Source: Pedobacter sp. SYSU D00535 (GTDB lineage: Bacteria > Bacteroidota > Bacteroidia > Sphingobacteriales > Sphingobacteriaceae). Taken from it: DNA of 64,000 nucleotides. The DNA lies in assembly GCF_017355855.1 (NCBI RefSeq), contig NZ_JAFEWD010000012.1:62001-126000 (forward strand), given 5' to 3'. The position numbers and the translations under genes were made by a program. Within the stretch, counting starts at the first letter, position 1, and each line of letters opens with the position of its first letter. The notes below the pieces were generated by a model. It was given only the letters and a program-made list of their open reading frames with translations, did no database searches and had not been told where the DNA came from. Positions 1,267 through 9,649 of this stretch are shown here, in pieces.

Positions 1267-2679
1267 ATGAAGAGAATCTTAATTGTTGATGATGAAGTTA
1301 ATATCGGATTACTGCTCTCCAGGTTTCTTACCCGAAACGGCTTTGAAGTAGCTACCGCCACGAACGGCGGCGCAGCGATGGAAATGCTTGGTAAAGAAAA
1401 ATACAATTTAGTACTCTGCGACTTCCGTCTGGAGGATACGGATGGAAGGGAGATGCTTAAAAAAATAAAAGTCTCTTATCCTGCTACCGGTGTAATTATC
1501 ATAACGGGTTATTCCGACATCAAGTTAGCCGTCGAGCTTATTAAAATGGGGGCTTATGATTATATCACGAAGCCCTTGTATCCGGATGAAATTTTAAACA
1601 CCATCAACAAAGCTCTTGAAACACAGGAAGCTTTATCGAAGGATTTTGCGGAGGAGAGTACTTCTCAAAGCTCGAAAAAGGAAAAGTCGTCGGACAGCAA
1701 TCTCGCTTTCCCGGATCAATTTATAACGGGCCAAAGTAACGCCTCACGCGAGCTTCTGAAACAGATCGAGTTAATTGCTCCCACCAACTATAGTGTTATC
1801 CTAACCGGCGAGAGTGGAACAGGGAAAGAGTCTGTTGCGAAGTCGATCCATTTGAAAAGCAATCGAAGTGATAAGCCCTTTATCGCTATGGACTGTGGCT
1901 CATTAACGAAGGAACTGGCCGGAAGCGAGTTCTTTGGCCATGAAAAAGGCTCTTTCACCGGAGCTTTGTATACTAAGATAGGCCATTTTGAAATGGCTAA
2001 TGGAGGTACGCTGTTTTTGGATGAAGTAGGAAATCTTTCCTATGATATCCAGGCGGCGCTTTTAAGAACGGTTCAGGAAAGAAAAGTTAAGCGAATTGGA
2101 AGCACGAAAGAGATCGACTTGGATGTCAGGATCATTGTAGCTACTAACGAAAACTTATCAGACGCGATTCAAAAGGGGAAATTCCGGGAAGATCTCTATC
2201 ACCGCTTCAACGAGTTCAGCATTCATTTACCGCCGCTTCGGAATCGGGAGCAAGATATTATCCTGTTTGCAGAGAGCTTTTTACAGGAAGCTAACGGCGA
2301 GTTAAATCGTAACATTGAAGGCTTTTCGGACGAGGTAATCGAATGTCTGCTAACCTATAACTGGCCAGGCAATGTACGGGAATTAAAGAACGTAATAAGA
2401 AGAGCTTGTCTGCTGACAGAGGGTTCAAAAGTCCCTATAAAAGCGTTGCCCCTCGAAATCTCAACCTTCGCCCGGGTGACCGCTATCGAAAGTGCGGTAG
2501 TAACTATTCAGGCAAAAGAGGCTAAAAAAGGTTTAAAAGATGCCGCGCTGGAAGCAGAATATGAAACAATTTTAAGGGTATTGAAGGAAGTAAACTTTAA
2601 TAAGACTAAGGCAGCTAAAATTTTAAATATCGACAGAAAAACGCTTTACAATAAAATGAAAGCAATCAATCTGGAATAA
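1267..2679 (+). CDS. Sigma-54-dependent response regulator (NtrC family)
   Basis: Cytosolic transcription activator with three domains. A receiver spans residues 1-120 (acid pair D8/D9, phosphoacceptor D52 in LCDFRLED, conserved Lys in ITKPL). A central AAA+ sigma-54 activation domain spans about 155-385 (Walker A GESGTGKE, GSFTGA as the sigma-54 contact loop, Walker B-type GGTLFLDEVGNL, R-finger region). A C-terminal Fis-type helix-turn-helix spans about 425-470 (NKTKAAKILNIDRKTLYNKM). The loop reads GSFTGA rather than GAFTGA, a tolerated variant. It lies 17 bases before a membrane histidine kinase, so the two are probably a cognate pair in one transcript. Targets cannot be read from the sequence. 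Confidence 0.93.
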   Translation: MKRILIVDDEVNIGLLLSRFLTRNGFEVATATNGGAAMEMLGKEKYNLVLCDFRLEDTDGREMLKKIKVSYPATGVIIITGYSDIKLAVELIKMGAYDYITKPLYPDEILNTINKALETQEALSKDFAEESTSQSSKKEKSSDSNLAFPDQFITGQSNASRELLKQIELIAPTNYSVILTGESGTGKESVAKSIHLKSNRSDKPFIAMDCGSLTKELAGSEFFGHEKGSFTGALYTKIGHFEMANGGTLFLDEVGNLSYDIQAALLRTVQERKVKRIGSTKEIDLDVRIIVATNENLSDAIQKGKFREDLYHRFNEFSIHLPPLRNREQDIILFAESFLQEANGELNRNIEGFSDEVIECLLTYNWPGNVRELKNVIRRACLLTEGSKVPIKALPLEISTFARVTAIESAVVTIQAKEAKKGLKDAALEAEYETILRVLKEVNFNKTKAAKILNIDRKTLYNKMKAINLE

Positions 2680-2696
2680 AACCGATAAAAAGATCG

Positions 2697-5456
2697 ATGC
2701 ACAATAGATTCAACATTCCTACTCCTATCTTATGGATTGTACTTATTATCTGCATTGTTCCCTCCATTTTTGTATTCCCCTACCTTAGTGACACCGCATC
2801 GACAGTCCCCTCTACCATCAGTTACAGAGGCTTCATATTCTTCAACATCTGGTTAATTGCGGGGATTGCTGTAGCGCTAATCACAGGGGTGCTTTCTTTT
2901 GTTGATTACCAAGTAAAGAAAGATCTGGCAACTCCGGTAATCGGCACTGCGCTGATCACCGTCGCTTTGTTTCAGGCCATCGTTCTATTGCTTAATGCTG
3001 ATAGTTCAACGCACCTTTTATCTCACAAGCAGAACTATCAAAACTGGTTTACTACCAGAGCGCTTTATCTAACCCTACTCATTCTTAGCTCGGCTTATTT
3101 GATTGGTAAAAGTAGAGCCCGGACAAAAAAGCCGGCGAACAAGAAGCTCATTTTAGCGCTCGTACCCATTCTTTCGGCAGTCTGCCTGGGAGTGGCTATG
3201 TTTGTAAATTCCCAGGACGGTAACTTATTTCCGAAATACGAAGCCAACACTTTTATTACCCACCCCTACGAGGCTATAACTCTTGTAGCCTATATTCTAA
3301 CAGGCTTTCTGTTGCTGCCGCCCTTTCAACGGCATTTCCCTTCACTGTTTTCGCGACTTCTTATATTAACGATTATTCCAGGCGCCTTCGCCGGATTATT
3401 TATGTCTGTCCACAGATCGCCGTTCGATATATTTTTTAATACCGCCTACTTCCTCAACTTCATTCATTATACGATTCCATTACTTGGTATCGCATTAAAT
3501 TATATTGAGACTACTAAAAAAGAGCGCCGGGTGATTAGCCAGTTACATCAGGAAATCAGAGACCGAATTGCCACGCAGCAGAAACTAAAGAAACGGGAAG
3601 CGTTGTTGGCAAAGGCTGAAAAAATAGCTCATTTGGGAAGCTGGGAGTATGACATTGATACGAAAGCGGTAGAGTGGTCGGATGAAATGTACAACATCTT
3701 CGGGGTGTCGTCAGACTATATCCCGAGCACCTATATTCACGATGAAGCAATTGTTGAAGCCTACAGAGAACGGGTAAAAAGGGAAATAGGATCAGCAGTC
3801 AGGAACAAGAGCACCTATCACTTAGAGTTCCAGATCAAGAGGCCCGACGGAACCATCAGGCATTTGCTGTCGCAGGGAGAATACGCTGCTTCCGACAATA
3901 AATTAGTAAACATCCTTCTTGACATCACCGAGCTGAAAGAGGCAACTCAGAAACTTTCGCAAAGCGAATCCCTGCTAAGAGAGGCGGAGGCCATTTCGCA
4001 CAATGGAAGCTGGGAGTGGTCCACAGAAAAAAACAGCTTCTTTTGGTCGGACGAGTTATACCGAATTCACGGACTTTTGCCGAACGACTCGTTCATTGAC
4101 CTTCGACATTATCTCAGTTTCATCCACCCCGAGGACGTTCAACGGTTCGTAAGCTCTCTGGCTGAAACTCAAAAAGGTTTAAAGCCATTCTCCCTCGAGT
4201 ACAGAATCATAAGACCCAATGGCGATATCCGACACCTGCTTCTGAGTGGTAAGTTTAAAACCGACTTTTCCGGAAACGTGGAAAGAATTTTGGGAAATAC
4301 ACAGGACATAACAGAACTAAAGAAAACGACCCTCCTACTCGATCGTAGTGAGAGTCTTTACAGGACGATCGCTAAAAATGCTCCCGACAGCGCTGTTTTC
4401 GTGTTTGATACAACCAAAGAATTATTACTGAAAGAAGGGCCGGCGATTGAAAAGATAGATCCGGAAGGTCTTTTTGCCACCGGTGCCACTTTCGAACTTG
4501 TAGTCTTTAATCAGGATTTTCAAACACATCGTGAGCTTTTAGAGCAGGCACTTGCTGGGAATGCCGGCTTAATCGAGCACAAGATTTCTGGAAAAACTTT
4601 CAAAACTTTCTACACACCAGCCTTCTCATCAGACGGAGAAATATTTGGCGTAATTACGCTGATGCATGACGTCACCGATTTAAAAAAAGCGCAGCAGGAG
4701 CTCGAACAAAAAATTTCCGAATTGAAGCGATCCAACCAGGATTTGGAGCAATTCGCATATGTAGCATCCCATGATCTTCAGGAGCCGCTCCGGAAAATTA
4801 AATCATTTGGAGATCGATTGAAGCGTAACTATGCGGCTACCTTACCAGATGAGGCGCAAGATTTTATCAACCGAATGAGTAATGCGTCTGACCGAATGCA
4901 AACTTTGATAGACGACTTGTTAACCTTATCCCGCGTCAGAAAAACTGAAGACCTTGCGCCAACTAATCTCGCTGAGACGATCAAAGAAGTGCTATACGAC
5001 CTGGAACACCTGATTGAACAAAAGCGGGCTCGCATTGAGGTGCAGGCAAATGTGACCATTCCGGCGATACCTTCGCAAATTCGGCAGCTTTTTCAAAACC
5101 TACTAACTAACTCCCTGAAGTTTAGTAAAGAAGGACAACCTGTACAGATTAAAATCTCAAGCAAGCTGATCTCCGGAAATAGCGTCAGTAACAGCTCTCA
5201 ATGTTTGAATAAAGAATGGACCTACGTACAAGTCGAATTGAGGGATAACGGCATTGGCTTCGATCAACAATATTCTTCCGCCATATTTTCACTATTCCAT
5301 CGACTACACTCCCGGAGCGAGTTTGCAGGAACTGGTATAGGACTTGCAGTATGTAAGAAAATCGTGGAAAACCACGATGGTTTTATTGAAGCTGAAGGTG
5401 AACAAAATGAAGGCGCTTTATTCCGGATTTTCGTTCCTGCGAATAGGGAGTCTTAG
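2697..5456 (+). CDS. Membrane multi-PAS sensor histidine kinase
   Basis: Inner-membrane sensor kinase of 919 residues. The first ~270 residues hold about seven or eight hydrophobic helices with no recognised sensor family. A short coiled coil (about 275-305) leads into two clear PAS/PAC repeats with GSWE-type starts (about 305-420 and 430-545) and a third, more diverged PAS (about 555-670). The HisKA box is YVASHDLQEPLRKI with His692, the type common in Bacteroidota phytochrome-like kinases. The HATPase domain (about 795-915) has the N box (LLTNSLKF), G1 (RDNGIGF) and G2 (GTGIGLAVCKKIV). It follows the sigma-54 activator by 17 bases, its likely partner. A weak terminator-like repeat follows. 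The signal sensed is unknown. Confidence 0.92.
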   Translation: MHNRFNIPTPILWIVLIICIVPSIFVFPYLSDTASTVPSTISYRGFIFFNIWLIAGIAVALITGVLSFVDYQVKKDLATPVIGTALITVALFQAIVLLLNADSSTHLLSHKQNYQNWFTTRALYLTLLILSSAYLIGKSRARTKKPANKKLILALVPILSAVCLGVAMFVNSQDGNLFPKYEANTFITHPYEAITLVAYILTGFLLLPPFQRHFPSLFSRLLILTIIPGAFAGLFMSVHRSPFDIFFNTAYFLNFIHYTIPLLGIALNYIETTKKERRVISQLHQEIRDRIATQQKLKKREALLAKAEKIAHLGSWEYDIDTKAVEWSDEMYNIFGVSSDYIPSTYIHDEAIVEAYRERVKREIGSAVRNKSTYHLEFQIKRPDGTIRHLLSQGEYAASDNKLVNILLDITELKEATQKLSQSESLLREAEAISHNGSWEWSTEKNSFFWSDELYRIHGLLPNDSFIDLRHYLSFIHPEDVQRFVSSLAETQKGLKPFSLEYRIIRPNGDIRHLLLSGKFKTDFSGNVERILGNTQDITELKKTTLLLDRSESLYRTIAKNAPDSAVFVFDTTKELLLKEGPAIEKIDPEGLFATGATFELVVFNQDFQTHRELLEQALAGNAGLIEHKISGKTFKTFYTPAFSSDGEIFGVITLMHDVTDLKKAQQELEQKISELKRSNQDLEQFAYVASHDLQEPLRKIKSFGDRLKRNYAATLPDEAQDFINRMSNASDRMQTLIDDLLTLSRVRKTEDLAPTNLAETIKEVLYDLEHLIEQKRARIEVQANVTIPAIPSQIRQLFQNLLTNSLKFSKEGQPVQIKISSKLISGNSVSNSSQCLNKEWTYVQVELRDNGIGFDQQYSSAIFSLFHRLHSRSEFAGTGIGLAVCKKIVENHDGFIEAEGEQNEGALFRIFVPANRES

Positions 5457-5770
5457 CCTACTGTCCGTGCTACCAATACAGCCAACCAACCAATTATTAC
5501 TGTAGAGAAGCGCCAAAGGCTGCTTTTCATGATGAGTTAAATAAATTAATGTTTAAAGCTCGCCTAAACAGGAGCGAGGGCTATTTAATTGTCACTGCTT
5601 TTCCATCTGGGATATTGCTGCGAAGCAAGCAAAAGCTGGGCAGGGTTGTAGATTACAGAGAAGATTCAAGTCTACAAGATGTGCAGAAAAATCCCCAACC
5701 GTGAAGCTGGCGGTAAGTAGTACCTCTTTAACTGGCAACCAAATAACCTTAAATAATTAGCGCTATTCTT
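5457..5770. other. 314-base gap between two signalling genes, possible structured leader
   Basis: No credible protein-coding frame was seen. The left end has a weak hairpin (AGCGCC AAA GGCTGCTTTT, about 5508-5526) that may end the upstream kinase transcript. A small hairpin built on CTCGC/GCGAG lies at about 5559-5578. A perfect 7-base inverted repeat TTGTAGA (5646-5652) and TCTACAA (5671-5677) encloses an 18-base loop. No cobalamin, TPP, SAM or other riboswitch signature was recognised. The gap could carry a leader or small RNA for the next gene, but nothing here proves transcription. Confidence 0.35.
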
Positions 5771-7207
5771 ATGCGAAAAATTAAGATTCTACTAGTTGAT
5801 GATGATGAAGATGACTTCATCCTAACCCGCGAACTCCTCTCGGATTCACCGAGGAAAGCCACCTATGAATTATCCTGGTGCAATAATTATCGCGAAGCTA
5901 TCACCTTACTGCTGAAGGGTCTTTACGATATCTACCTGGTGGACTACCGTCTTGGAAGCCATTCTGGTATTGATCTTTTAAATGAAGCAGTAAAGTCAAG
6001 TTGTACAAAGCCAATTATTATTTTAACCGGTAAAGGTGATTCCCGAATTGATGAGGAAGCACTACAACTGGGGGCAGCGGATTATCTGGTAAAAGATCAA
6101 ATTGATTGCGCAACGCTGGAAAGAAGTATAAGATACTGTTACGGGCACTCCAAGGCGCTGGAGCAACTGAAAGAAAGTGAGAATAAATTCCGGATCATCT
6201 TTGAACGATCGAAGGACCCTATGTTGATTACGGATCAAAAAGGAAATATTTATGAGGCAAATACGGCTGCCTTACGGTTTTTCGAATATTCGAAAGAAGC
6301 CTTTCTGAGAAAAAACGCTGCCGAACTCTATCGCAACAAGAACAACAGAAAGGTATTCACAAACAGTCTTCAGGGAAATGGCTCCGTAGCCAATCTGGAA
6401 TTCGAATATGTGACAGCAAGCGGAAAAACCCGGGTTTGCAGTATCTCTTCCTTTGTTCAAATATCGAAGCAAAGCGATGTGGAGCTGTATTACTCTATCT
6501 TACACGATATTACCTACCGCAGACAGCAGGAGCAGCAAATTGCTCTTGAAGAAAAGCTCTCTTCCATTGAACGCATCACCCGCAACCTTGCGGACGAAGT
6601 GCTTAATCCCTTATCAAACGTAAACCTTGCCCTCGATGAACTGAGGGGAAGCCTCACCAGGCAAGAAGACCTTCTTCTATATGAAATTATCAGAAAGAAC
6701 TGTGATAGAATCAGCGAGTTAAGCACCCAACTAGTTGAAAGCACCCAGTCAGCACCACTAAGCATTAAGAGAATCGATTTCGTCGAGGTTTTGAACCGAA
6801 CGGCGAAGGAGGCGGAGGGTCTATATGACCTTGAAATTAACATCAACGCGCCTAAAACTACTATTTTCTTTTATGGGGATGAGGCTAAGCTAGCTTTGGC
6901 AATTATGAACATTTTTGAAAACGTTTCAGAATCTCTGGAATTCAAAAAACGAGGCATCCTTGTCAACGTGAGTGAAACTTCGAGGGACGTTTCCTTAGAA
7001 ATCTCTGATAAAGGAATCGTCATCCCGAAACAAGACCTTGACAAAGTGTTTGAACCATACTTTACTAGTAAGGGTAAGAGTTCTGGCTTAGGTCTGGCTC
7101 ATTCTCAACGTATAATTCAGGCTCACGATGGGCAGATCGAAATTAAGAGCGGCCAGCACGAAGGCACTACAGTAAAAATCACCTTGCCAAGAATACGGCA
7201 ACTGTAA
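5771..7207 (+). CDS. REC-PAS-histidine-kinase-like protein lacking the phosphoacceptor His
   Basis: Soluble 478-residue signalling protein. A receiver domain (1-120) has acid residues at 10-12, phosphoacceptor D58 in LVDYRLG and a conserved Lys near 109. A PAS domain (about 135-255) follows. The rest resembles the HisKA/HATPase kinases of Bacteroidota whose H box normally reads as AHE-xxNPL. Here it reads RNLADEVLNPLSNV: the His position is Asp275 (codon GAC at 6593-6595). The ATPase part keeps the N box region (FENVSESL), the F box (FEPYFTSK) and G2 (SSGLGLAHS), but G1 is DKGIVIP, where the second glycine is lost. It may bind ATP yet cannot autophosphorylate in the usual way, suggesting a pseudokinase or a partner-modulating role. 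It follows the kinase/sigma-54 regulator pair. Confidence 0.88.
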   Translation: MRKIKILLVDDDEDDFILTRELLSDSPRKATYELSWCNNYREAITLLLKGLYDIYLVDYRLGSHSGIDLLNEAVKSSCTKPIIILTGKGDSRIDEEALQLGAADYLVKDQIDCATLERSIRYCYGHSKALEQLKESENKFRIIFERSKDPMLITDQKGNIYEANTAALRFFEYSKEAFLRKNAAELYRNKNNRKVFTNSLQGNGSVANLEFEYVTASGKTRVCSISSFVQISKQSDVELYYSILHDITYRRQQEQQIALEEKLSSIERITRNLADEVLNPLSNVNLALDELRGSLTRQEDLLLYEIIRKNCDRISELSTQLVESTQSAPLSIKRIDFVEVLNRTAKEAEGLYDLEININAPKTTIFFYGDEAKLALAIMNIFENVSESLEFKKRGILVNVSETSRDVSLEISDKGIVIPKQDLDKVFEPYFTSKGKSSGLGLAHSQRIIQAHDGQIEIKSGQHEGTTVKITLPRIRQL

Positions 7208-7315
7208 AGTGCTTTCCGAGATCGAACAAATTGGGGAACACCGTTGTTTATAACGCATGCTACTTATATCTACCTGTCCTTGCAAGCAGATGCTTTTTGC
7301 AACCCGCTAACGCCT

Positions 7316-8359
7316 ATGCCCGTTTTTAACTACAAGCAACGCAACAACATTGTACTAATAATTCTGATCATACTGGGGTGCTTTATCCTGTATTCCCTAC
7401 GATTCATTGCAGGATCTTTATTGAGCACCGTGGTTACTTACACCATCCTACGCCCGCTTTACATTCATCTTACGGAAGAGTGGAGATGGAGTAAAACGGT
7501 CGCCTGCATTTCATTAATGCTTAGCTCATTCCTGGTCATTGTACTGCCCTTTTTTATCCTGAGCTTGATGGTAATTAATAAAATCGCGGAGTTTGAGCGT
7601 GACCAGATTAAATTGAAAGTAATGGTAGCCAGGATAGATGACTTTCTGGGAGCTAAACTTCACCAACCAGATCTGCTGGAAAACGGCATTGAACGAGCTA
7701 CAACCTACATCAGCGATCTTTTTCCTTCTATTATAGGTGGCGCCTTTAGTCTCGTACTTGGAATTGCCATCATGTATTTCCTGCTTTACTTCATGTTTAT
7801 TCACCACGAGAAGTTTGAAGCTGAAGCGATCAAATACTCGCCCTTCCGTGAGCAAAATGCATTGAGATTTGGAGAGGAGTTGAAGAACACCACGTATTCA
7901 AACGTACTCGGACAAGGATTGATTGCTGTAGTTCAAGGTGCATTAGTCAGCATCGGCTTTTTTATGTTTGGTATCCGCGATGCTATTTTTTGGGGCGTAA
8001 TATCAACCTTCCTCTCCTTTATGCCCGTTTTAGGAGCACCGATAGTCTTTGTTCCGGCGGCGCTGATTGAGCTGGCTAATGGAGATACAACCGCAGGTTA
8101 CGGCATCCTTATTTGGGGATTTGTTTTAGTGATCAATATAGACAACGTCATCCGCTTTCTGATTGCTAAAAGAGTGGGAAACATTCACCCTATAATAACG
8201 GTGGTAGGAGTGATAATTGGCATACCCGTATTTGGAATTATGGGCCTTGTTTTCGGCCCGCTACTCCTTTCCTATTTCATTCTGACAGTGCGGATTTACG
8301 AAACGAGCCGCCTTGCTACAGAGCAGCTTGAGAAAATCCGGGCGGGCGACGAAGAATAG
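7316..8359 (+). CDS. AI-2E family (PerM/DUF20) transporter-like membrane protein
   Basis: Integral membrane protein of 347 residues with about seven or eight hydrophobic segments. The N-terminus has a pair of helices (IVLIILIILGCFILYSL and the segment after RWSKTVACISL), followed by a soluble, charged stretch and a C-terminal membrane bundle. The stretch WGVISTFLSFMPVLGAPIVFVPAAL and the later IHPIITVVGVIIGIPVFGIMGLVFGPLL are the conserved features of the family. Members have been linked to autoinducer-2 or ion export, but the substrate cannot be told from the sequence. A longer TTG-initiated frame begins at 7244. The ATG at 7316 is preferred because it directly precedes the first charged, membrane-anchoring residues. 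It appears to be a single-gene unit. Confidence 0.85.
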   Translation: MPVFNYKQRNNIVLIILIILGCFILYSLRFIAGSLLSTVVTYTILRPLYIHLTEEWRWSKTVACISLMLSSFLVIVLPFFILSLMVINKIAEFERDQIKLKVMVARIDDFLGAKLHQPDLLENGIERATTYISDLFPSIIGGAFSLVLGIAIMYFLLYFMFIHHEKFEAEAIKYSPFREQNALRFGEELKNTTYSNVLGQGLIAVVQGALVSIGFFMFGIRDAIFWGVISTFLSFMPVLGAPIVFVPAALIELANGDTTAGYGILIWGFVLVINIDNVIRFLIAKRVGNIHPIITVVGVIIGIPVFGIMGLVFGPLLLSYFILTVRIYETSRLATEQLEKIRAGDEE

Positions 8360-8510
8360 ATCAGGAAGCCGAATTTGGCCGCAAATTCAACTTCCCCTTT
8401 TCCTCTGAATAACATTATTCAAGTGAAAATTATTCAAACCGTCCGAGCTGTTTTATTGTATTATACGGTAGTTAATATTTTATCACCCGGAAGGGTTAAA
8501 CTTATACGCC

Positions 8511-8801
8511 ATGAACGACAATACCAAAGTTTTACTAGCTCTTTTGGCCGGCGCAGCTGCAGGTGCTGCCCTGGGCATACTTTTCGCCCCTGAGAAGGGA
8601 TCTGAAACACGCGACAGATTGAACGATGCGTTGAAAAACCTAAGCGACACTATTAAAGATCGCGCAGCGGAAGAAATTGAAAATCTTACCGCTTTTAAAG
8701 ATAAAGTTGTTGATGAGGTTAAAACACGATTTGCCTCTTCAGAGACAGAAGGCTTTGATCAAACGCAACAACAACAGGCACCGGTTGCCGAGCAAATTTA
8801 A
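8511..8801 (+). CDS. YtxH-domain protein (small membrane-anchored stress-type protein)
   Basis: A 96-residue protein with the YtxH layout. An N-terminal glycine/alanine-rich membrane helix (LLALLAGAAAGAALGILFAPEKG, residues 8-30) ends in the typical FAPEKGSETR motif. A charged amphipathic helical tail follows (about 31-80), rich in Asp, Lys and Glu, then a Gln-rich end. Such proteins are usually small, abundant, stress-responsive inner-membrane proteins; the exact role is unknown. It is the first of three closely spaced genes whose products (YtxH, holin-superfamily-III, unknown) recall the E. coli yqjD-yqjE-yqjK set. Confidence 0.88.
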   Translation: MNDNTKVLLALLAGAAAGAALGILFAPEKGSETRDRLNDALKNLSDTIKDRAAEEIENLTAFKDKVVDEVKTRFASSETEGFDQTQQQQAPVAEQI

Positions 8802-8848
8802 ATTACAGGTCCTGGCCTCCCGCCAGGACTTACATTAACATCAATTTT

Positions 8849-9205
8849 ATGGCCGAGACACAAGACAAACAACAGTCGCCGGATTTAGCTGCACTGCTTA
8901 AAGAATATATCGCTACCCGGGTTGAATTAACCAGGTTAACTATTATCGAGCGGTTGACAGTAGTAACAGCAAATTTAATAACGGACACTTTTGTACTGGT
9001 AGCTGGATTACTTACATTCCTGTTTGCATCATTTACACTTGCCTTATGGATCGGGGAGGAAACAGGATCCTACGCGGCAGGTTTTGGAATAGTAGCCTTA
9101 ATCTATCTGGCGCTAGCTCTGATTGTATTTTTTACCAAAGAGCGACTTGTTGACAACTACCTGCAGGATTTCATGGTGAAAAGAATTTTTAAAAAGAAAA
9201 AGTAG
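8849..9205 (+). CDS. Holin-superfamily-III / YqjE-like membrane protein
   Basis: A 118-residue protein with an amphipathic N-terminal helix (LLKEYIATRVELTRLTIIERL) and two strongly hydrophobic segments (about 45-68 and 75-98), followed by a basic tail ending in IFKKKK. This matches the putative phage-holin superfamily III family, to which E. coli YqjE belongs. Most chromosomal members are not in prophages, and no phage gene lies nearby. The stop codon is immediately followed by the next start, so the two are translationally linked. The likely place of action is the inner membrane as part of an envelope-stress group with the YtxH protein upstream. Confidence 0.78.
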   Translation: MAETQDKQQSPDLAALLKEYIATRVELTRLTIIERLTVVTANLITDTFVLVAGLLTFLFASFTLALWIGEETGSYAAGFGIVALIYLALALIVFFTKERLVDNYLQDFMVKRIFKKKK

Positions 9206-9649
9206 ATGGAAAAAAGTTTTAGCAGTTTCGCAGAATTACAGGCTGAAATCCAATTTCTTAAAGTTCAGCAATTCCATCAGGAAGAAAATTTGAAGGAAAA
9301 ATTCAGCAATCCAACAACAATATTCCAAGCGATAACCGGTCTGTTTAAATCCAGTTCTTCGAATAAATCTTTGGTCCACGATTTCATGAACCAGGATATG
9401 ATTACGAATATCTCTCGCGTTATTCTTCCTTTATTTTTGAATGGCGTGATATTCAAAAAATCTGGATTTATAGTTAAAACGCTTGTGACCTTCTTATCGC
9501 AGAAGGCGGCCAAAAAAGTGAACTCTAACGCTATCTCGGGCATCATTGATAAAGTAAGCGGACTATTTAAAAGCAGAACCGCATCTACTGGATCAGGTCA
9601 TCCCAAGATAAAAGACTACGGCATTCCACCAGATAGCGAAACTTACTAG
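9206..9649 (+). CDS. Unknown protein in the YtxH/YqjE-like operon
   Basis: Not recognised. The protein has 147 residues: a charged, probably coiled N-terminal stretch (1-35, ending HQEENLKEKFS), then alternating amphipathic and hydrophobic segments (ISRVILPLFLNGVIFKKSGFIVKTLVTFL, about 65-95) that could lie on or in the membrane. The C-terminus is polar, SGHPKIKDYGIPPDSETY. Its ATG follows the upstream TAG without a gap, so it is co-translated with the YqjE-like gene. It is the position-equivalent of YqjK in the enterobacterial operon, although no sequence similarity was established. A clear terminator follows, closing the operon. Confidence 0.75.
   Translation: MEKSFSSFAELQAEIQFLKVQQFHQEENLKEKFSNPTTIFQAITGLFKSSSSNKSLVHDFMNQDMITNISRVILPLFLNGVIFKKSGFIVKTLVTFLSQKAAKKVNSNAISGIIDKVSGLFKSRTASTGSGHPKIKDYGIPPDSETY

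Follow-up and report, generated by a model that had tools for sequence, protein, structure and literature searches.

A histidine kinase-like protein with a receiver and no phosphoacceptor histidine, encoded beside a sigma-54 activator in Pedobacter

Pseudo-histidine kinases that have been characterized are few, DivL and NifL being the examples at hand. According to the excerpts of the reports used here, DivL works by protein contact and has neither kinase nor phosphatase activity (PMC4211667), and NifL is built of two PAS domains, an H domain, and a GHKL domain, these four domains including no receiver (PMC9866876). LvrB illustrates control by a receiver. As described in the available part of the report, its REC domain is phosphorylated by the partner kinase LvrA, His161 then autophosphorylates, and REC phosphorylation drives the formation of a coiled coil (PMC13269768). 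The available text on CrdS and three other HisKA kinases states that their phosphatase activity requires an Asn or Thr four residues after the His, at H+4 (PMC3510030). Our search of the open-access literature, outside which most subscription papers lie, found no paper on a family of His-less REC-PAS-DHp-CA proteins. Here, we describe such a protein, encoded at positions 5771–7207 of a 64,000-nucleotide stretch of Pedobacter sp. SYSU D00535 (hereafter the window), and its orthologs.

Protein architecture and gene neighborhood

The following features, all on the + strand, are referred to below.

1267..2679, +: NtrC-type response regulator (REC, sigma-54 interaction AAA+ domain, Fis-type HTH)
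2697..5456, +: membrane PAS sensor histidine kinase whose H box (ASHDLQEPL) is intact
5457..5770, +: 314-bp gap, occupied in sister loci by a CheY-like single-receiver gene
5771..7207, +: His-less REC-PAS-DHp-CA protein of 478 aa (intact ORF, Pfam domains, alignment)
5786..6100, +: receiver domain, residues 6–110, with D10, D11, D58, T86, and K108 intact
6182..6514, +: PAS domain, residues 138–248 (Pfam PAS_9, 149–248)
6512..6745, +: DHp two-helix region, residues 248–325 (helices 248–292 and 298–325 in the model)
6593..6595, +: GAC codon for Asp275, where kinases have the phosphoacceptor His
6875..7192, +: HATPase_c (CA) domain, residues 369–474 (Pfam)
7019..7021, +: V417, replacing the second Gly of G1

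The Pfam matches to REC (6–110), PAS_9 (149–248), and HATPase_c (369–474, 68.8 bits) are all above cut-off, and the HisKA match at 267–321 is weak (17.7 bits vs. a cut-off of 26.9). The sequence-only reading had placed an Asp at the phosphoacceptor site of an otherwise well-kept H box, and we confirm it: the box reads RITRNLADEVLNPLSNV, in which the His is replaced and Glu276, Asn279, and Pro280 are retained. With Asp275 at this position, the protein falls outside the HisKA kinases, defined by a phosphoacceptor His in the H box. The G1 box (DKGIVI) is, as had also been read, short of one glycine, V417 standing for the second. Retention of the F box and of G2 had been claimed as well. This is true of the F box (F427) and only partly of G2, whose first Gly is Ser437. 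The N-box Asn384, D413, and G415 are retained in the CA domain. The receiver is normal, as stated in the earlier reading, and has the acid pair, phosphoacceptor Asp, Thr/Ser, and Lys of a functional receiver. An AlphaFold2 model based on a 38-row alignment (mean pLDDT 87.7, pTM 0.57) predicts a helix linking REC to PAS (113–146) and another that leaves PAS and spans the former His site (248–292). Because whole-chain TM-scores are low, the domain arrangement of the model is tentative. Foldseek ranked PAS and LOV histidine kinases first for this model, followed by LvrB and NifL.

The activator, the kinase, and the 5771–7207 gene lie in that order on one strand. In most loci with enough flanking sequence, the activator is found upstream of the gene, with or without the kinase and the CheY-like gene in between; the exceptions, without this pattern of a preceding activator, are G057, G004, G046, L103, and L124. 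In the His-bearing outgroup loci L109 (1829–3268) and L123 (1487–2980), rpoN, identified by its sigma-54 domains, directly precedes the NtrC-type activator and the kinases. An ORF of the size of rpoN, putatively the same gene, precedes the activator in many other loci. The rpoN gene of the source genome is on another contig (C14). A search for sigma-54 promoters gave no signal, either with the exact consensus (two matches genome-wide vs. one in the reversed control) or with up to two mismatches (23 in the 64-kb window vs. 29 expected).

Downstream of the locus, the region 7244–9649 encodes an AI-2E/PerM-type transporter, YtxH-like and holin-like proteins, and a 147-aa protein. The AI-2E/PerM-type set follows in most Sphingobacteriaceae loci read, whatever kinase genes remain. 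The AI-2E/PerM-type gene comes immediately after the activator in G013, G035, G021, and G026; the congener G031 has the order activator, kinase, CheY-like gene, and AI-2E/PerM-type gene. Judged by its absence from these five genomes, the REC-PAS pseudokinase gene is dispensable. Within the genus, the source genome keeps the pseudokinase without the CheY-like gene, and G031 shows the reverse (L186 8438–8848). The CheY-like receiver and that of the pseudokinase may, from these gene contents, be partly interchangeable. A stretch of about 20 residues on the minus strand of the 5457–5770 gap (E 5e-4, gap alone) was considered as a CheY relic and taken as a chance match.

Single loss of the phosphoacceptor histidine

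A search at an E value of 1e-20 gave matches in 66 of the 399 family genomes. From the 73 family match rows, we used 49, one per genome and including the 5771–7207 protein, and set aside 24 scoring 165 bits or less, including the second fragment of G112, whose gene is split. In the named genomes, 265 stretches were confirmed, 80 loci were kept, and 60 of these were aligned. After removal of seven identical rows, the 49 loci of the family and the 60 from named genomes form an alignment of 102 distinct proteins. Six further genomes lie outside it: the four checked all carry Glu at the His site, and the other two are G401 and G412. Among the 20 unaligned named loci, which were spot-checked, the recognizable kinase H boxes carry His; L155, L158, L159, L160, L162, and L166 show none.

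The phosphoacceptor site is occupied by H in 58 of the 102 rows, E in 20, N in 12, D in four, K in two, R in two, and L in one, with a gap in three. The His is thus missing from 44 rows. The congener G006 and Desertivirga xinjiangensis (L090) have identical copies, with L at this position; by this identity, the source genome is probably that of a Desertivirga relative within the Sphingobacteriaceae. K occurs in the near relatives G011 and G034. The sequence-only reading had proposed that homologs be aligned to see whether Asp is fixed, and had named a sequencing error as a possible refutation. Neither a sequencing error nor a lone mutation is compatible with 44 distinct rows without the His. 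Asp as a newly fixed phosphoacceptor was likewise rejected, given its occurrence in four rows only and the L and K of the close relatives. Such varied substitutes are expected if no new phosphoacceptor was selected.

The His-bearing rows come from Taibaiella, Chryseosolibacter, Dyadobacter, Chitinophagaceae MAGs, and other Bacteroidota, and from six genomes of the family itself (G024, G032, G007, G057, G004, and G046). A maximum likelihood tree was built on the REC and PAS columns of 92 rows, omitting ten near-copies. All 42 His-less rows, against 50 with His, fall on one side of one branch (support 97/95), and a single His change was recovered in 98% of bootstraps; the long branches G001, G025, and G041 are placed with less certainty. 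According to this tree, the His disappeared a single time, in a Sphingobacteriaceae ancestor, and is missing from all descendant rows examined, and the sister proteins elsewhere in Bacteroidota retain it. As the His-less rows share one branch, Asp275 is one outcome of this old single loss.

A weak control within the source genome was provided by a regular expression, which matched a His-containing H box in 16 of the 18 further kinase-like ORFs examined; L009 and L018 fall outside this match, and L014 gave no row. Two frames of this genome, L006 (C11) and L007 (C12), have identical scores and lengths (E 4.2e-12, 1450 aa) and are perhaps a duplicated long sensor kinase. A second group of proteins, mostly 315–366 aa long and about 30% identical over REC and PAS (L073 and L076–L085), occurs in other genomes of the family, in many cases close to single-receiver genes.

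Domain constraint and repeated losses in the His-less clade

In the 56 full-length His-bearing proteins, all catalytic residues checked are invariant. The 34 His-less members with a CA domain all keep D10, D11, D58, T86, and K108 in the receiver and N384, D413, G415, and G439 in CA; N380 is kept in 18 of them. The first Gly of G2 is gone in 30 of the 34 versus none of the 56 full-length His-bearing proteins, and V417 in G1 is found in none of the 33 other members. Pairs of His-bearing proteins with REC identities of 0.65–0.75 (n = 226) show mean identities of 0.78 in DHp and 0.67 in CA. For the 5771–7207 protein and its four nearest full-length relatives, the means are 0.69 for REC, 0.54 for DHp, and 0.39 for CA. 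As judged from these identities, DHp has shifted from the best-kept domain to an ordinary one in the His-less clade, where REC is the slowest-changing domain and DHp and CA are under weaker constraint. The shift is uneven: the Glu-type (Pedobacter-like) members have a CA identity of 0.58 at a REC identity of 0.73, and the Asn-type members one of 0.47 at 0.88. Across all four domains, dN/dS is 0.00–0.06 in two close Glu-type pairs; it is about 0.11 for CA in the Asn-type pairs (L026 with L028/L029). By these estimates, which come from close pairs and not from the 5771–7207 copy, purifying selection acts in the subclades.

The 5771–7207 copy might itself be a nonfunctional relic on its way out, as has already happened in G031. 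Its private G1 change, the absence of the gene from a congener, and CA identities of only 0.32–0.38 to the four nearest full-length relatives are what a decaying gene could show. We regard this as most improbable: the frame is open, its codon-position GC resembles that of the neighboring genes, and all the catalytic residues of the receiver are kept although the nearest relatives are only about 50% identical.

The CA domain is wholly gone in eight His-less loci (G084, G065, G075, G041, G001, G025, G020, and G054). In these loci, the next ORF begins 57–167 bp after the gene, and a tblastn scan downstream of each detected no convincing CA remnant. In two others it is broken, G074 ending early and G112 being split. 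L145 and L146, which stop at contig ends, were excluded from this count. Loss or damage of CA needs five changes on the tree. The products of G020 and G054, of about 260 aa, have lost most of DHp too. In G065 and G075, CA was lost though the neighboring kinase is kept, and a contact through CA therefore cannot be the mechanism common to all members.

These losses bear on the alternative raised in the sequence-only reading, a phosphatase. As considered here, its target would be the activator or the protein's own receiver, and its key residue the retained Asn279 of the H box. This residue occupies H+4 in the 5771–7207 protein, and CrdS H371A still had reduced phosphatase activity in the part of the report used (PMC3510030). 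However, H+4 is Asp in 10 of the 19 Glu-type members and in G006, and the same text reports that the N375D substitution abolished the phosphatase activity of CrdS. Moreover, 10 of the 44 His-less rows have no CA or a broken one, and DivL is, in the excerpt cited, not a phosphatase (PMC4211667). We thus consider a phosphatase function very unlikely.

A NifL-like anti-activator is another candidate. The protein would bind the NtrC-type activator directly and keep it from acting, switched by PAS, REC, or nucleotide binding. The gene lies beside the sigma-54 activator in most loci with enough flanking sequence, and the NifL–NifA complex is among the Foldseek matches of the model (PDB 9qq6, rank 22, E 2.2e-18). 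According to the part of the report available, NifL is kinase-like, has no phosphotransferase activity, and uses GHKL/DHp to contact the NifA AAA+ domain (PMC12998174). Ordinary histidine kinases nonetheless outrank NifL, so that the fold match is unspecific; members without CA or most of DHp could not make the NifL contact; and the activator already has a receiver of its own. This mode of action seems to us quite unlikely.

The kinase gene is absent from six His-less loci: G084, G041, G001, G025, G020, and G054. Among the His-less rows of the tree, four of these six have a damaged receiver pocket, compared with none of the 36 kinase-bearing ones (Fisher p 0.00013, uncorrected for the tree), and these cases amount to only three to four independent losses (sign test p 0.5). 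In G084, a stop-bearing relic of the CA region of the sensor kinase lies in the gap between the activator and pseudokinase genes (L069) and the receiver is intact, which fits a recent kinase loss. G041 has no such relic, and its receiver is also intact. The receiver motifs of the activator are retained in all six loci, L065 among them. None of the 58 His-bearing rows shows receiver damage. Five of the corresponding loci have no kinase (L117, L120, L131, L132, and L144), and their intact receivers argue against a simple rule tying receiver damage to kinase loss. In G001 and G025 the gene is still present, but its receiver pocket is destroyed. Some output must therefore be possible without D58, and the PAS domain alone may, from these two sequences, still carry some of it.

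Conservation of the receiver could also be explained by a phosphate sink. The receiver would drain phosphate from the kinase and set the threshold or timing of the activator, PAS and DHp would serve only to hold the dimer, and CA would be a relic. REC is indeed the best-kept part, and the shortest forms (G020 and G054) are reduced to REC-PAS. A single-receiver gene occurs in the same operon of relatives, the source genome and its congener G031 keeping opposite genes. Yet PAS, which a sink does not need, is kept throughout, purifying selection acts on DHp and CA in the Glu-type pairs, and the gene persists in G001 and G025 despite a destroyed pocket. A sink is for these reasons unlikely in our view.

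A receiver-controlled adaptor and its relation to known systems

Taken as features of the sequences, the phosphoacceptor is lost, the receiver is retained, the transmitter is relaxed, and the gene persists beside the activator, usually together with the sensor kinase. The proposal that the protein is a pseudokinase is well supported by one ancestral His loss, relaxed DHp and CA domains, and repeated loss of CA. We take it to be a noncatalytic descendant of a receiver-controlled histidine kinase. The sequence-only reading had gone further and suggested regulation driven by the receiver, in concert with the adjacent kinase and sigma-54 activator. This remains plausible, and the conservation pattern and the confinement of receiver damage to kinase-less loci, in few independent events, favor it.

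We therefore prefer, and give an even chance to, a noncatalytic adaptor controlled by its receiver and serving the adjacent kinase and sigma-54 activator, by a logic like that of DivL or NifL. The reasons are that the receiver is conserved, the transmitter is relaxed, and the receiver is damaged only where the neighboring kinase was lost. In such an adaptor, the neighboring membrane kinase would phosphorylate D58. Phosphorylation would change the dimer through the long REC–PAS helix and the PAS–DHp helix, as in LvrB, and the dimer would then act by contact on the kinase or the activator, with no phosphotransfer of its own, as DivL and NifL do.

On a wider and more tentative view, which we hold at somewhat less than even, one family curtailed a phosphorelay of the Bacteroidota rpoN locus, made up of a sensor kinase, a REC-PAS-kinase, and a sigma-54 activator. 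Deprived of its His, the middle component would have become an adaptor that reads phosphorylation, and present-day lineages would show successive stages of its stripping: a dead kinase, REC-PAS-DHp, REC-PAS, pseudo-REC-PAS, and the activator alone. REC-PAS would be the working part, the signal leaving through the dimer rather than as phosphate. The family forms a natural series in which the losses of the His, CA, the partner kinase, and receiver chemistry can all be placed on the tree, and His-bearing sisters in a similar gene order provide built-in controls. This makes testable what role is left to a receiver-controlled kinase unable to pass on phosphate.

Among known systems, LvrB of Leptospira (REC-DHp-CA) shares the N-terminal receiver joined by a helix to the transmitter, and its structure (PDB 8vc9) was matched by both sequence and fold. 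LvrB has His161, whereas the 5771–7207 protein has no kinase His of its own and carries a PAS domain between REC and DHp. With DivL of Caulobacter it shares PAS-DHp-CA and the replacement of the His by another residue, and by sequence it corresponds to the DivL type of pseudo-histidine kinase, that is, a kinase-homologous transmitter with its His replaced. DivL, as far as the excerpt describes it, has Tyr550 and reads DivK~P; here the receiver is built in, and the substitute is not fixed. Like NifL, which lacks phosphotransferase activity in the text available, it is a histidine kinase-like PAS protein paired with a sigma-54 activator. It departs from the PAS1-PAS2-H-GHKL arrangement in having REC and one PAS instead of two PAS, and the NifL contact, described there as made through GHKL/DHp, involves parts lost in several family members. 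Finally, a ChrS variant of Corynebacterium without a working CA still alters the signaling of a paralogous kinase, with formation of heterodimers, according to the part of the report cited (PMC9491836). That variant is a laboratory-selected frameshift, whereas the proteins described here form a natural, old lineage in which the His itself was lost.
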